Source: Urechidicola croceus
GTDB taxonomy: Bacteria > Bacteroidota > Bacteroidia > Flavobacteriales > Flavobacteriaceae
Direction: 5' to 3'
DNA: 64,000 nt
NCBI GenBank assembly: GCA_905181865.1
Contig: CAJIZG010000001.1
Location: 682,001 to 746,000 of the forward strand
Shown here: one piece after another, positions 13,126-19,493 of the stretch
How positions within the stretch are numbered: position 1 is the first letter of the stretch
How the letters are laid out: every line of letters starts with the position of its first letter
Notes under the pieces: generated by a model
Database searches by the model: none
What the model saw: only the letters and a program-made list of their open reading frames with translations
What the model was told of the DNA's origin: nothing
Position numbers and translations under genes: made by a program

Positions 13126-14517
13126 TTATATGTTTTCAGCTAAAAGCAATGCTTTTTTCAAGGCTGCTAGTTTATTATTTACTTCCTGTAATTCCTTTTG
13201 TTCCTCACTATGAAAAACAATTCCTGCTCCTGCTTGATAATACAAGGTATTATTTTTACTTACAAATGATCGGATCGCAATGGCCAAATTTATAGAACCA
13301 TCTAGTCCTATAATTCCAACAGCTCCTCCGTAAAACCCCCGAGATTGATTCTCATATTTATCGATTAACTGCATGGCTTTGTATTTTGGAGCACCACTCA
13401 AAGTTCCTGCTGGAAATGTATCCCCAACAATGGAGATTGGATTTCCTTTTATGGTTCCTTTTACGGTGGAAACCAAATGAATAACATGACTAAAATATTG
13501 TACTTCTTTAAACACCTCTACATTCACATGATCGGCGTGTTTACTCAAATCATTTCTAGCCAAATCAACCAACATTACATGCTCCGCCGTTTCTTTTTTA
13601 TCTTCAGATAATTTCTTACCCAGTTTGATGTCTTCAGCCATATCACCCGTTCTTCTAAAAGTACCCGCAATAGGATTTATGGTTGCTTTTCCTGCTGAAA
13701 TTTTAATTTGTGCCTCTGGAGAAGACCCCATCAACTTAAAACTTCCATAGTCGAAATAAAACAAATATGGCGAAGGATTGATTGATCGTAACGCTCTATA
13801 CACGTTAAATTCATCTCCTTTAAATGATTGCTGAAATTGTCTTGACAACACCAATTGAAATACATCTCCACGCTTACAGTGCGCTTTTGCTTTTCGAACA
13901 TACTCCACAAAATCTTCATTTGTACAGTTAGAAGTTTCATCTCCATCTATTTCAAAATCTTGTGTATTGAAGGCCTGAGCATCAATAATTGTCTCGATTT
14001 CATTAATTCTTGCTTCAGTTCCTTCTTCAATATTTTCAAGCAATGTCATTTCATCATTAAAATGATTGATGGCAATAATGAAACGATAAAAACTATATTG
14101 TAATAACGGAATAGATGAAGGTGACGTGGTGTTTTCAAAAACTATATTTTCAAAATACTGCACACTATCATAGGTCGAATAACCATATAATCCATTAAAC
14201 GACTTAAGAGCAGGATCACACTCTAAATCTATAGAACTTGAATATTTTTGAAACAATTTATTAAAATCCTTATCGATCTTTTGCTCATCAACCTTCACTC
14301 CTTTTTGGTGTAAAGATAATTTATGATCTTGAGTTTTAATGGTCACAACAGGCTCCATACATATAAAAGAGAAGCTCTCTTCCTTACTATGATAATTTGA
14401 ACTCTCCAGTAAAAGCGTATTTGCATATTTATCACGCAGCCTTAAATATAATCCGACTGGTGTAACAGTATCTGCAATTTTCTTTTTAGAGGCAGTATTA
14501 AATGTTAGTTTTTTCAT
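13126..14517 (-). CDS. trpE: Anthranilate synthase component I
   Basis: GDVFQLVLSRQF, GSSPE, PIAGTFRRT, AGAGIVFHSE; first gene of trp operon. Confidence 0.96.
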   Translation of the reverse strand: MKKLTFNTASKKKIADTVTPVGLYLRLRDKYANTLLLESSNYHSKEESFSFICMEPVVTIKTQDHKLSLHQKGVKVDEQKIDKDFNKLFQKYSSSIDLECDPALKSFNGLYGYSTYDSVQYFENIVFENTTSPSSIPLLQYSFYRFIIAINHFNDEMTLLENIEEGTEARINEIETIIDAQAFNTQDFEIDGDETSNCTNEDFVEYVRKAKAHCKRGDVFQLVLSRQFQQSFKGDEFNVYRALRSINPSPYLFYFDYGSFKLMGSSPEAQIKISAGKATINPIAGTFRRTGDMAEDIKLGKKLSEDKKETAEHVMLVDLARNDLSKHADHVNVEVFKEVQYFSHVIHLVSTVKGTIKGNPISIVGDTFPAGTLSGAPKYKAMQLIDKYENQSRGFYGGAVGIIGLDGSINLAIAIRSFVSKNNTLYYQAGAGIVFHSEEQKELQEVNNKLAALKKALLLAENI

Positions 14518-14530
14518 ATCTTTTAATAAA

Positions 14531-14558
14531 AAAAGGCTTATCGTGAGATAAGCCTTTT
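14531..14558 (-). terminator. trp attenuator terminator hairpin between leader peptide and trpE
   Basis: Perfect 12-bp stem AAAAGGCTTATC/GATAAGCCTTTT, 4-nt loop, followed on minus strand by a run of T. Confidence 0.88.
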
Positions 14559-14599
14559 TGATTTTATGTTTTAAATATCATATAGTCGTTATTCCCCAC

Positions 14600-14647
14600 T
14601 TATTGTTTAAGAGAATTCCACCAATTGATATTTTGAGTCGTTGCCAT
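14600..14647 (-). CDS. trp operon leader peptide MATTQNINWWNSLKQ
   Basis: ATG GCA ACG ACT CAA AAT ATC AAT TGG TGG AAT TCT CTT AAA CAA TAA on minus strand; tandem Trp codons; between promoter and terminator upstream of trpE. Confidence 0.85.
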   Translation of the reverse strand: MATTQNINWWNSLKQ

Positions 14648-14666
14648 TTTTTGTTCTAATATGATA

Positions 14667-14696
14667 CAAATGTATGATAGTTTTTAAATATATCAA
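14667..14696 (-). promoter_or_regulatory. Bacteroidetes-type promoter of trp operon leader
   Basis: TTG-N19-TACATTTG on minus strand (CAA at 14694-14696, CAAATGTA at 14667-14674). Confidence 0.75.
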
Positions 14697-14760: not shown

Positions 14761-17700
14761 CTATCTCATAATTCTCACATTCATCTCTTCCACTTTTTTA
14801 TCAGATAATTGAGATGGTGATCCAAATAATAAATCTTCACTTGTTCCTGTTTTTGGGAAAGCCATCACTTCTCTAATTGAGGCTTTTTTCTCCAAAATCA
14901 TCATTAAACGATCTACACCCCAAGCTATCCCTCCGTGTGGCGGTGCTCCATAATGGAATGCTTTGTACATGGTTCCCACACTTTTCATCATTGCCTCTTT
15001 ATCGTAACCCATATTTTTATAGGTCGCCTCCAATATTTCCGGCTTATGGGCTCTCACAGATCCACCACCAATTTCATAACCATTCAATATCAAATCATAT
15101 TGCTGGGCAGTGATAGTGCCTATTTCATCCTCCTTACCATTCATATGTTTGTCCAAATCGTAAATCGCAGGCATAGAAAACGGATTGTGCGTAAACGTCC
15201 ATCTACCCTCATCTGTTTTTTCAAACATTGGAAAATCTACCACCCAAGCAGGATGTAGTTCCTTTGGATTTATCAATTTCAACATCGCTCCCATTTCCTG
15301 ACGAACAGCGTCCAACGCTTTATTTGCAGTCGCATAATTTGCCGCTGAGAAGAATACAATATCTCCAACCTCAGCATTCGCAGCTGCTATTATTCCAGCA
15401 GCGATTTCTTCACCCAAGAATTTAATAATTGGAGACTGTAAATCATTTTCATTTACAATAATATATGCTAATCCACCTAAGCCATGATCCTGTGCAATTG
15501 ATGTCAATTTCTCAATCTGACCTTTTGACATTCTCTTTTTTCCTTGTTCTTCAGAAGACACTTTAATGCACTTCACAATACCTCCGTCTTCAATAGGTTT
15601 ACTAAAAACCTGGAAGGTTGTATCTTTTACAATTTCTGTAATGTCTTGCATTTGTAATCCAAAGCGCAAATCTGGACGGTCACATCCATACTTATCCATC
15701 GCTTCTTTGTAGGTAATTACTTCGAATGGTTTTAAGATCCATTTCTTACCATATATTTTTCGAACAATTTCATTGAACATATTCGTGTTCAAATCAATAA
15801 TCTGTTGCATACTTGCGTATGCCATTTCGATATCTAACTGTGTGAATTCTGGCTGACGATCTCCACGAGAATCTTCATCTCTAAAACAGCGTGCAATCTG
15901 AAAATACTTTTCAAAACCACCTACCATCAACATTTGTTTAAATTGCTGCGGTGCCTGTGGTAACGTATAAAATGAACCCGCTTGTTTGCGTGTTGGAACA
16001 ATAAACTCTCTTGCTCCTTCATCTGTTCCTGCAGTTAAAATTGGCGTTTCAATCTCTAGAAATTCTTGTGTGTCTAAAATATCTCGCATCAACTTAATTA
16101 CCTTATGACGATTTACAACTGCTCTGCGCACATCATCATTTCTGTGATCTAAATATTTGTATTGAAAACGTATATTCTCATTGGTTCTCGTCGCTCTTTT
16201 AATTTCAAAAGGCAGTGTTTTAGACAAGTTTAAAATCTCTAATTCTGAAGTTTCTAACTCAATTTTTCCAGAACGTAATCCTGAATTGTAATCATCTTTT
16301 TTACGTTGGACAACCACTCCTGTTACAGAAATTACAGATTCTGGCTTTAACTTCACTAATTCATCTAAATTCGGAAATGACTCGCGACTTAACCGTACCT
16401 GAAAAATTTCATTGCTGGAATCACGTAAATCAATAAAAATTAATTCTCCATGATCTCGAACACTCGACACCCAACCCGATAAACTTACTGTTTCAGCTAT
16501 AGTATCTTCACGTAATTGAGAAATTACATGGGTTCTATATTCATCTTTTATAATGATAGGAATTTCAGGTAGCGTTTCCTCCTCATTAATTGCTGGTTGT
16601 TTACTGTTCGTTGTTTGTTGTCCTTCAACTTTTATTGAACTTTCAACTTTTAACTCAGAACTTTGAACCCCACTTAAAATTCCTTCTCTAATCACTTTTC
16701 CTGAAGCACCTTTACCAATAATAGCAATAACTTTACCTACGAGAATTCCTGCTTTCCCTTGATTTCCCGCCTTGATTTCGTTTGCTACAACTTCATTCTC
16801 TAAAATCACCTTTTGAATAGCGTCCTTAATCTGATCTTCAGAAATCGTATGATCTGCAAAGTATTTTTTATAATCGAAAGTAGGATCAGTTAGTAACGAT
16901 TTGATTCCATTTTGAACCAATACTACTGTTACCTTTTCTTCTTTAAACATTGAAAATATTTCAACAAAATCATCAATATTCACAATACGGCTATAGTCTT
17001 CTGGCTTTATATTATTCGATAAAGCTTTGGCAACAAACAAGGGATCTTTTACAACTTTATTAATGGCCGTAAATGTAGTAGAGCGCAATGAATCTGCTGT
17101 AAAGAATTTTGCGTCTTGTGGCAAAACACCTCCATTAATTAAAATAGATTCAACTGCATAAGGAAGTAAACTCACATCTACTTTTATAGTATCTACTACT
17201 TCTTTAATATTTACAAAAGGTAAATCTGGTTCAGAAATAAAACGATAATCTGCTTCGAATTCCTTTTTACGCATGGTTTTGGTTTGCTTTAAATCAGCAT
17301 CCCAAAGCACGGTCGTTTGATCTGGTCTAAACTCTTTGTGTTCTATATAATAATTGAACTGTTTCTCTATTTCTTCTTTTAAAGCCTCTACCATAAACTT
17401 GAATGAGTTCAAGTTTTTAATCTCTGTACGAGGATTTAATTCGCATGTGTTTTTTTTACGCAGTGACACCGAAACATCTGACTTGAACTCACCCTTTTCT
17501 AGGTTCGCCTCTGATATTTTTAGATTCTGAACAATACGTTGAATATACTGCGCATACGTTGAAGCATCTTCTATATGACGAATACAAGGTTCTGTAACAA
17601 TTTCAATCAACGGAACACCTGCCTTATTAAAATCAACCAATGAAACTTTCTTTTCATGCATCAATTTTGCAGCATCTTCTTCAATATGAACTTGTGTCAA

Positions 17701-18093
17701 GTTCACTGTAAATTGCGAACCATCATTGCGATAACAAGATACTTGTCCGTCTGGAATTATCGGATTATGAAATTGTGTGATCTGAATATTCTTTGGATTG
17801 TCAGGATATTCATAATGTTTTCTATCCCAAGAGATTAACTCGTTTTTAAAAGTAGATGCTACCGCTTTTCCAAAATAAATTGCCTTGATAATCGCCTCTT
17901 TATTAAGAGATGGCAATACGCCCATTTGTCCTGTACATACAGAACATATATTCTCATTCGGTTTTTCTATTTCTTGATTTGGACAAGAACAAAACAACTT
18001 GGTTTTAGTATTTAATCGAACATGTGTTTCTAGTCCAATAACCAATTCTAATTCGTGGGCTTTTAAGGCCGCGTCTAATTGTTCCAGTTCCAT
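14761..18093 (-). CDS. gatB/aspS: Fused aspartyl/glutamyl-tRNA amidotransferase subunit B and aspartyl-tRNA synthetase
   Basis: N-terminal half: VIGLETHVRLNTKTKLFC, GVPLIEIVTEP, C-terminal YqeY-like tail. C-terminal half: SGWVSSVRDHG, FLEIETPILTAGTDEGAREF, GIAWGVDRLMM. A single uninterrupted 1110-codon frame. Confidence 0.95.
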   Translation of the reverse strand: MELEQLDAALKAHELELVIGLETHVRLNTKTKLFCSCPNQEIEKPNENICSVCTGQMGVLPSLNKEAIIKAIYFGKAVASTFKNELISWDRKHYEYPDNPKNIQITQFHNPIIPDGQVSCYRNDGSQFTVNLTQVHIEEDAAKLMHEKKVSLVDFNKAGVPLIEIVTEPCIRHIEDASTYAQYIQRIVQNLKISEANLEKGEFKSDVSVSLRKKNTCELNPRTEIKNLNSFKFMVEALKEEIEKQFNYYIEHKEFRPDQTTVLWDADLKQTKTMRKKEFEADYRFISEPDLPFVNIKEVVDTIKVDVSLLPYAVESILINGGVLPQDAKFFTADSLRSTTFTAINKVVKDPLFVAKALSNNIKPEDYSRIVNIDDFVEIFSMFKEEKVTVVLVQNGIKSLLTDPTFDYKKYFADHTISEDQIKDAIQKVILENEVVANEIKAGNQGKAGILVGKVIAIIGKGASGKVIREGILSGVQSSELKVESSIKVEGQQTTNSKQPAINEEETLPEIPIIIKDEYRTHVISQLREDTIAETVSLSGWVSSVRDHGELIFIDLRDSSNEIFQVRLSRESFPNLDELVKLKPESVISVTGVVVQRKKDDYNSGLRSGKIELETSELEILNLSKTLPFEIKRATRTNENIRFQYKYLDHRNDDVRRAVVNRHKVIKLMRDILDTQEFLEIETPILTAGTDEGAREFIVPTRKQAGSFYTLPQAPQQFKQMLMVGGFEKYFQIARCFRDEDSRGDRQPEFTQLDIEMAYASMQQIIDLNTNMFNEIVRKIYGKKWILKPFEVITYKEAMDKYGCDRPDLRFGLQMQDITEIVKDTTFQVFSKPIEDGGIVKCIKVSSEEQGKKRMSKGQIEKLTSIAQDHGLGGLAYIIVNENDLQSPIIKFLGEEIAAGIIAAANAEVGDIVFFSAANYATANKALDAVRQEMGAMLKLINPKELHPAWVVDFPMFEKTDEGRWTFTHNPFSMPAIYDLDKHMNGKEDEIGTITAQQYDLILNGYEIGGGSVRAHKPEILEATYKNMGYDKEAMMKSVGTMYKAFHYGAPPHGGIAWGVDRLMMILEKKASIREVMAFPKTGTSEDLLFGSPSQLSDKKVEEMNVRIMR

Positions 18094-19493
18094 TATATCG
18101 TATCTTTTAAGAAGTTAGCAAACTTCAAAACGAGTTCCTCATTGTTTTTTGCTGCAGTAACCTGCAATCCTGTAACGGTTCCTTGAGGAACTGTCAAGGT
18201 TGGTAATTGTCCTAAACTAAATCCTACAGTATAGGCATCAGACAAATACATGGCATGCGGATCTTTTAAACTCTCTCCTATTTTTGGAGGAGGACTTGGT
18301 GTAACAGGTGATAAAATAATATCTACCTCCTTAAAATCTGTATCAAAATTTGTAGAAATTTGATCTCTTAGTGTTAAGCCCTTCAAATAAATATCATCAG
18401 AAAAACCTTGAGATAACACTTGATTTCCACCAACTATTCTGCGCTTTGACTCTTCTGAAAAACTTTCAGATCGCGTGGTCGCATAGGTATCAATTAAATT
18501 CTCCCCTTCAATACGATTTCCATAGTTTGAACCATCTAACCTAGATAAGTTGGATGCTGTTTCTGCCATTGCCAAGGTGTAATAAGTAGAAACTAACGTA
18601 TCTCCTTTAAAAAAATCCAATTCCTTTACTTCTATTCCTTGTGCCTTTATCTTTTCTATCGACGCAAAGAAATCAGCCTTAACTGCAGCATCAATTGCAT
18701 CCCCTTCTATAAAATTTTTAAAATACCCTACCTTCGTTCCACTTGCGTCCTTTGCAATTTCTTGCTCACTAATTTCTGTAGATAAAATAGTTGTTTGATC
18801 TTTACTATCTTTTCCACTCATCGCATTCAACACAATGCGAATATCTTCAACAGACTTCGCCAATGGTCCTACACAATCTGTAGAAGAAGCGTATGCCATT
18901 AATCCGAAACGTGAAATACGTCCGTACGTTGGTTTAAATCCGTAAATTTTATTGTATCCTGCTGGCTGACGAATAGATCCTCCTGTATCACCTCCAATAG
19001 AAAACACCGTATAATCTTTGGCTACATTCACCGCTGATCCTCCACTAGAACCGCCACTAACGAATGCTGGATTGATTGCATTTTTAACAGGGCCAAAAAT
19101 AGTATTCTCACTAGACGAACCATGTCCAAAACTATCACAATTTTCTTTTACTAAGGGAATAGCACCTACATCCAATAATTTTTGAATGGCCGTTGCGGTA
19201 TAAGGCGACTTGTAATTTTTTAACATATCAGAAGAGGCAGTCGTATACGTGCCTTGCACCATATACACATCTTTAATTCCAAATGGAATTCCTTCTAATA
19301 ATCCGATTTTCTCACCATTGTTTATTTTGGCATCTACCTTTGCCGCTAAATCTATTGCTGTTTCCTCTAATAAAGAGTTTACAGAATTATAGGCATTCGC
19401 TTTTAGTAATTCTAATCGTTCTTGCACTAGTGAAGTACAAGTAATTTGTTTAGACACGAGTTGCTCGTGTATCTTTTTTATCTGTGACTCCAT
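18093..19493 (-). CDS. gatA: Asp-tRNA(Asn)/Glu-tRNA(Gln) amidotransferase subunit A
   Basis: Amidase signature GIPFGIKD, SGGSSGGSAV, GGDTGGSIRQPA. Confidence 0.96.
   Translation of the reverse strand: MESQIKKIHEQLVSKQITCTSLVQERLELLKANAYNSVNSLLEETAIDLAAKVDAKINNGEKIGLLEGIPFGIKDVYMVQGTYTTASSDMLKNYKSPYTATAIQKLLDVGAIPLVKENCDSFGHGSSSENTIFGPVKNAINPAFVSGGSSGGSAVNVAKDYTVFSIGGDTGGSIRQPAGYNKIYGFKPTYGRISRFGLMAYASSTDCVGPLAKSVEDIRIVLNAMSGKDSKDQTTILSTEISEQEIAKDASGTKVGYFKNFIEGDAIDAAVKADFFASIEKIKAQGIEVKELDFFKGDTLVSTYYTLAMAETASNLSRLDGSNYGNRIEGENLIDTYATTRSESFSEESKRRIVGGNQVLSQGFSDDIYLKGLTLRDQISTNFDTDFKEVDIILSPVTPSPPPKIGESLKDPHAMYLSDAYTVGFSLGQLPTLTVPQGTVTGLQVTAAKNNEELVLKFANFLKDTI

Follow-up and report, generated by a model that had tools for sequence, protein, structure and literature searches.

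A predicted ribosome-mediated trp attenuator of the Bacteroid-trp family upstream of trpE in Urechidicola croceus

In Escherichia coli, the trp leader carries tandem Trp codons, can form three helices that exclude one another, and has a terminator located before trpE. In the Bacteroidetes, a distinct family of leaders, Bacteroid-trp, was published by Weinberg et al. in 2010 (Table 1; PMC2864571) and appears in Rfam as RF01692, "Bacteroidete tryptophan peptide leader RNA". The Bacteroid-trp RNA that precedes the trp operon of F. psychrophilum was discussed as a Trp-peptide attenuator in a report that also names the TAnnTTTG promoter consensus (PMC6414381). For the same species, transcriptome data led to the inference that amino-acid operons are attenuated through leader peptides (PMC9723704).

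We analyzed a 64,000-nucleotide stretch of the U. croceus genome (the window), in which a first-pass annotation had described a trp attenuator on the minus strand. Direct reading of the sequence confirmed the promoter, the leader ORF with its tandem Trp codons, the 40-nt spacer and their order before trpE. The perfect terminator hairpin with its T-run was also found, but its stem comprises 13 bp rather than the 12 bp initially proposed. The observed arrangement is thus confirmed as real: a TAnnTTTG promoter is followed by a 15-residue leader peptide with a Trp-Trp pair, the spacer, the terminator hairpin and trpE (Table 1). The 145-nt leader folds far better than shuffled sequences (z = -5.55). 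The bases of the terminator were also listed on the plus strand because the hairpin is symmetrical; that assignment was rejected, as on the minus strand the A-rich 5′ arm and the T-run are those expected of a terminator ahead of trpE. The trp operon is intact in the window, with trpG, D, C, F, B and A downstream of trpE. These genes were named from their translations, and trpE was also identified by Pfam.

Table 1. Features of the trp leader region, in window coordinates.
Feature	Position	Strand	Basis
Bacteroidetes-type promoter, TTG-N19-TACATTTG	14667..14696	-	Sequence; motif conservation; consensus in PMC6414381
Promoter sub-elements TTG, N19 and TACATTTG	TTG 14696-14694; TACATTTG 14674-14667	-	Sequence
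Match to RF01692 Bacteroid-trp, 45.2 bits (cut-off 49)	14547..14670	-	Permissive Rfam scan
trp leader peptide ORF MATTQNINWWNSLKQ, without Shine-Dalgarno sequence (ATG at 14647; TAA stop ends at 14600)	14600..14647	-	Sequence; conservation in relatives
Tandem Trp codons TGGTGG	14618..14623	-	Sequence; comparison with relatives
Strand 1, AATTCTCT, in the NSL codons	14610..14617	-	Folds without ribosome; swap test, 27 lineages
Spacer, 40 nt	14599-14560	-	Sequence
Strand 2, GTGGGGAATAA, directly after the leader stop	14589..14599	-	Duplex and masked folds
Intrinsic terminator, 13-bp stem, TCAC loop, 7-T run (14534-14528)	14528..14559	-	Sequence and fold
Terminator stem arms AAAAAGGCTTATC / GATAAGCCTTTTT, perfect pairing	14559-14530	-	
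Strand 3, TTATCTCAC, top of the terminator 5′ arm and loop	14543..14551	-	Covariation; swap test
trpE, first gene of trpE-G-D-C-F-B-A	13126..14517	-	ORFs; Pfam Anth_synt_I_N and Chorismate_bind

An Rfam scan of the window at default cut-offs returned only a tRNA and no RF01692. The permissive scan detected the leader as RF01692, the only match to this model in the whole genome (E = 5.3e-4). At 45.2 bits, the window copy falls about 4 bits short of the gathering cut-off of 49 bits, which is why the default scan misses it. The prediction that standard annotation would overlook the leader therefore holds for the default cut-off but not for a permissive search. As the score is below the cut-off, the relation to the family was argued from orthology. 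The window leader aligns with the orthologous leaders of its genus, and it shares its position before trpE with recognized members of the family. Four genomes of the same genus (G001, G004, G006 and G010) have RF01692 matches of 49.7 to 55.7 bits just upstream of trpE. The Trp-codon ORF lies inside the model match. The relatives are Flavobacteriaceae and the leader is followed by trpE, in agreement with a family that occurs upstream of trp genes in Bacteroidetes. The window copy has in common with RF01692 its location before trp genes in the same clade, the Trp-codon leader, the long leader hairpin and a GGCUU-type terminator start; it differs by its score and by the presence of two rather than three Trp codons. 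On these comparisons the window element is taken to be a divergent copy of the trpE leader RF01692. It thus represents a kind of element already described (PMC2864571; in F. psychrophilum, PMC6414381), which answers a question left open by the first-pass annotation.

We collected the regions upstream of trpE from 60 related genomes and 80 named Flavobacteriaceae loci; the best hits would place the genome of the window in or close to Urechidicola. A short ORF encoding WW or WWW was present in 110/110 regions from relatives, a set that includes the region of the window itself and some genomes twice. The usual leader ends in WWWNSL, as seen in Polaribacter, Tenacibaculum, Lutibacter, Flavicella and relatives of Urechidicola. 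WWW occurs in 131 and WW, as in the window, in 15 of the 154 related leaders, those of close relatives not being independent. The absence of a Shine-Dalgarno sequence and the TAnnTTTG promoter, both pointed out from the window alone, recur among relatives: an SD-like motif precedes only 4/154 leaders, and TAnnTTTG is found upstream of 139/151 (15.8 expected). In many relatives (L004, L005, L038 and others), an extra stretch of approximately 100 nt separates the terminator from trpE, which places the leader stop 150 to 200 nt upstream of the gene rather than 70 to 100. In a second, wider set of 69 loci, made up of a class-wide sample and more distant relatives, a W-rich short ORF was found upstream of trpE in 52, with terminators. 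In some loci of that set, a leader precedes trpB in place of trpE, and an additional leader lies before trpD in one genome. WW or WWW leaders also precede trpD or trpB rather than trpE at L183 (G234), L185 (G166) and L187 (G131); G234 has in addition a W.W leader before trpE.

When the sequences of relatives were set side by side, GTGAG was seen at the leader stop, either overlapping it or immediately downstream, and CTCAC in the loop and upper arm of the terminator. Among 99 unique related leaders with GGCTT-type terminators, the 5-bp apical core of a helix between strands 2 and 3 is possible in 95, with 8% expected. Its base pairs covary, as GUGAG:CUCAC, CGUGA:UCACG, GUGAA:UUCAC and CGCGA:UCGCG. 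In a swap test with 27 lineages that have distinct terminator tops, the strand 2:3 duplex had a mean energy of -13.2 kcal/mol for native pairs versus -9.6 kcal/mol for swapped pairs, and none of 20000 permutations reached the native mean. The same test was passed by the strand 1:2 hairpin (native, -15.6; swapped, -11.7 kcal/mol), which forms in ribosome-free folds and is extended by an outer stem, AAATATCA / TGATATTT. The comparison supports GTGGGGAATAA (14599-14589) paired with TTATCTCAC (14551-14543) as the putative antiterminator. The alignment of relatives proposed initially showed that the promoter, Trp codons and terminator, as well as the two alternative helices, are conserved across the clade.

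We then represented the ribosome by masking its footprint, assumed to extend 15 nt to each side of the first nucleotide of the P-site codon, in folds of RNA cut off at the terminator loop. In the window leader, 8.2 strand 2:3 pairs were expected when the ribosome stood at the Trp codons, 0.27 when it stood at the stop codon and 0.39 without ribosome, a difference between states that was matched by 0/300 spacer shuffles. In the stalled fold, GTGGG and ATAA of strand 2 are paired with strand 3. The corresponding means for 142 unique leaders were 7.3, 2.2 and 3.6. In these computations, antiterminator and terminator are mutually exclusive and switched by the position of the ribosome. In equilibrium folds of the full leader the terminator wins in every ribosome state, and the states are told apart only when the folded RNA stops at the terminator loop. 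The switch must therefore be kinetic. Enterobacterial trp attenuation is likewise kinetic.

With a probability that we estimate at roughly 93%, the element is a ribosome-mediated attenuator that controls transcription of the trpEGDCFBA operon and is an orthologue of the RF01692 leaders (Bacteroid-trp), a reading well supported by the conservation described above. Transcription would start just after TACATTTG, and the leader peptide would be translated without a Shine-Dalgarno sequence. With ample charged tRNA-Trp, the ribosome would reach the stop codon and cover strand 2, so that formation of the terminator would stop transcription ahead of trpE. With scarce charged tRNA-Trp, the ribosome would wait at TGGTGG and cover strand 1. 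Strand 2, left free, would then pair with the emerging terminator at its loop and upper 5′ arm, which would hold back terminator formation long enough for RNA polymerase to move past. In the absence of translation, strand 1 would pair with strand 2 and the terminator would form. We infer from these features that the leader responds to tryptophan by kinetic competition, which would provide the trp operon of the window with a complete, ordinary regulatory annotation, namely a putative tryptophan-sensing on/off switch.

The attenuator might be partly degenerate in this genome, the leader and terminator persisting while the operon has become weakly responsive to tryptophan. The window has WW instead of WWW and GUGGG where relatives have GUGAG. 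Its strand 2:3 duplex is weaker (-6.7 kcal/mol, versus about -9 to -12 kcal/mol in relatives), and in the swap test 19/26 foreign strands pair equally well. However, its substitutions preserve pairing through G-U in both helices, its masked folds still switch strongly, WW leaders occur in other lineages and the trp operon is intact. We thus regard degeneration as unlikely, although regulation could be weaker at this locus given the weaker antiterminator and two rather than three Trp codons.

The antiterminator initially proposed for the attenuator was a different helix, ATAAGT over the stop codon paired with GCTTAT in the 5′ arm of the terminator. This helix is possible in 62/99 related leaders, with 13% expected by shuffling, but the apical helix is possible in far more of them. 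Furthermore, ATAAGT:GCTTAT is lost in the lineages with CGTGA:TCACG, which retain the apical helix, and the ATAAG segment is better accounted for by the competing strand 1:2 hairpin, in which it would pair with the NSL codons. We therefore ranked this candidate second after the apical helix; it is probably not the main antiterminator, and we give it little credence.

It is highly improbable that the leader serves translational coupling or reinitiation, or that the hairpin is merely the terminator of the upstream gatA-gatB/aspS operon with an incidental ORF, since even though the hairpin also lies downstream of the end of that operon at 14761, the Trp codons and strand pairing are kept across lineages, also before trpB or trpD, about 80 nt separate the leader stop from trpE, and the promoter motif is found between the upstream operon and the hairpin.

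The attenuator of the window resembles that of E. coli by its tandem Trp codons, three exclusive helices and terminator before trpE. It differs by the absence of a Shine-Dalgarno sequence, its TAnnTTTG promoter and a strand 2 that is aimed at the terminator loop and the top of the arm. The enterobacterial trp leader family of Rfam gave no match in the window, even at a permissive E-value. The leader would thus work like its enterobacterial counterpart but shows no sign of common descent with it. The leader-peptide candidates of F. psychrophilum (PMC9723704, PMC6414381) are likewise located before amino-acid operons in a member of the Flavobacteriaceae, with a Bacteroid-trp RNA before the trp operon; they differ in that transcript maps are available there, whereas the attenuator of the window is predicted from sequence.

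Beyond the known family, the analysis adds a putative loop-aimed antiterminator, the low recall of the RF01692 model and predicted serial attenuators in a sister family. The RF01692 consensus stops inside the terminator and models neither the strand 2:3 pairing nor the terminator stem, so that the candidate helix described here, which is testable, is missing from the present model. RF01692 exceeded its cut-off in 18/60 relatives and 8/198 class genomes, in searches that used stricter filters and that included class genomes lacking a trpE operon. One match, in G035, adjoins genes predicted from their sequences to be lysA- and aspartokinase-like, and looks like chance. As nearly all examined trpE loci of relatives have a leader, the Bacteroid-trp leader appears to be far commoner than default Rfam scans suggest. 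We propose tentatively, with somewhat less than even confidence, that a loop-first antiterminator, which the Rfam model lacks, is common to the trp leaders of Bacteroidia, the strand released by the stalled ribosome nucleating on the loop and upper arm of the terminator, that with this element the family extends to most Bacteroidia trp operons, including copies missed by the model, and that one lineage has two serial attenuators.

In the sister family, two WWW leader ORFs are found in series before a single trpE (L018 and L186 in G039; L019 in G054). Each of the serial leaders of G039 has its own terminator hairpin, and both score against RF01692. The arrangement in G039 and G054 is, by its sequence features, one of serial trp attenuators.

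A gene for a LytTR DNA-binding-domain protein (6851-7660, plus strand) is convergent to trpA. The operon upstream of the leader (14761-19493, minus strand) consists of gatA (18093-19493), named from its sequence, followed by a gene whose 1110-residue product is a natural GatB/aspartyl-tRNA synthetase fusion (Pfam GatB_N, GatB_Yqey, tRNA-synt_2 and GAD). A separate aspartyl-tRNA synthetase, with 39% identity, is encoded elsewhere in the genome. Among 40 relatives, the full-length fusion was found only in G006, G015 and G019, with 80 to 88% identity, and it is split between contigs in G005. With so few occurrences, the fusion has the appearance of a sporadic one-piece transamidosome that may have been transferred.
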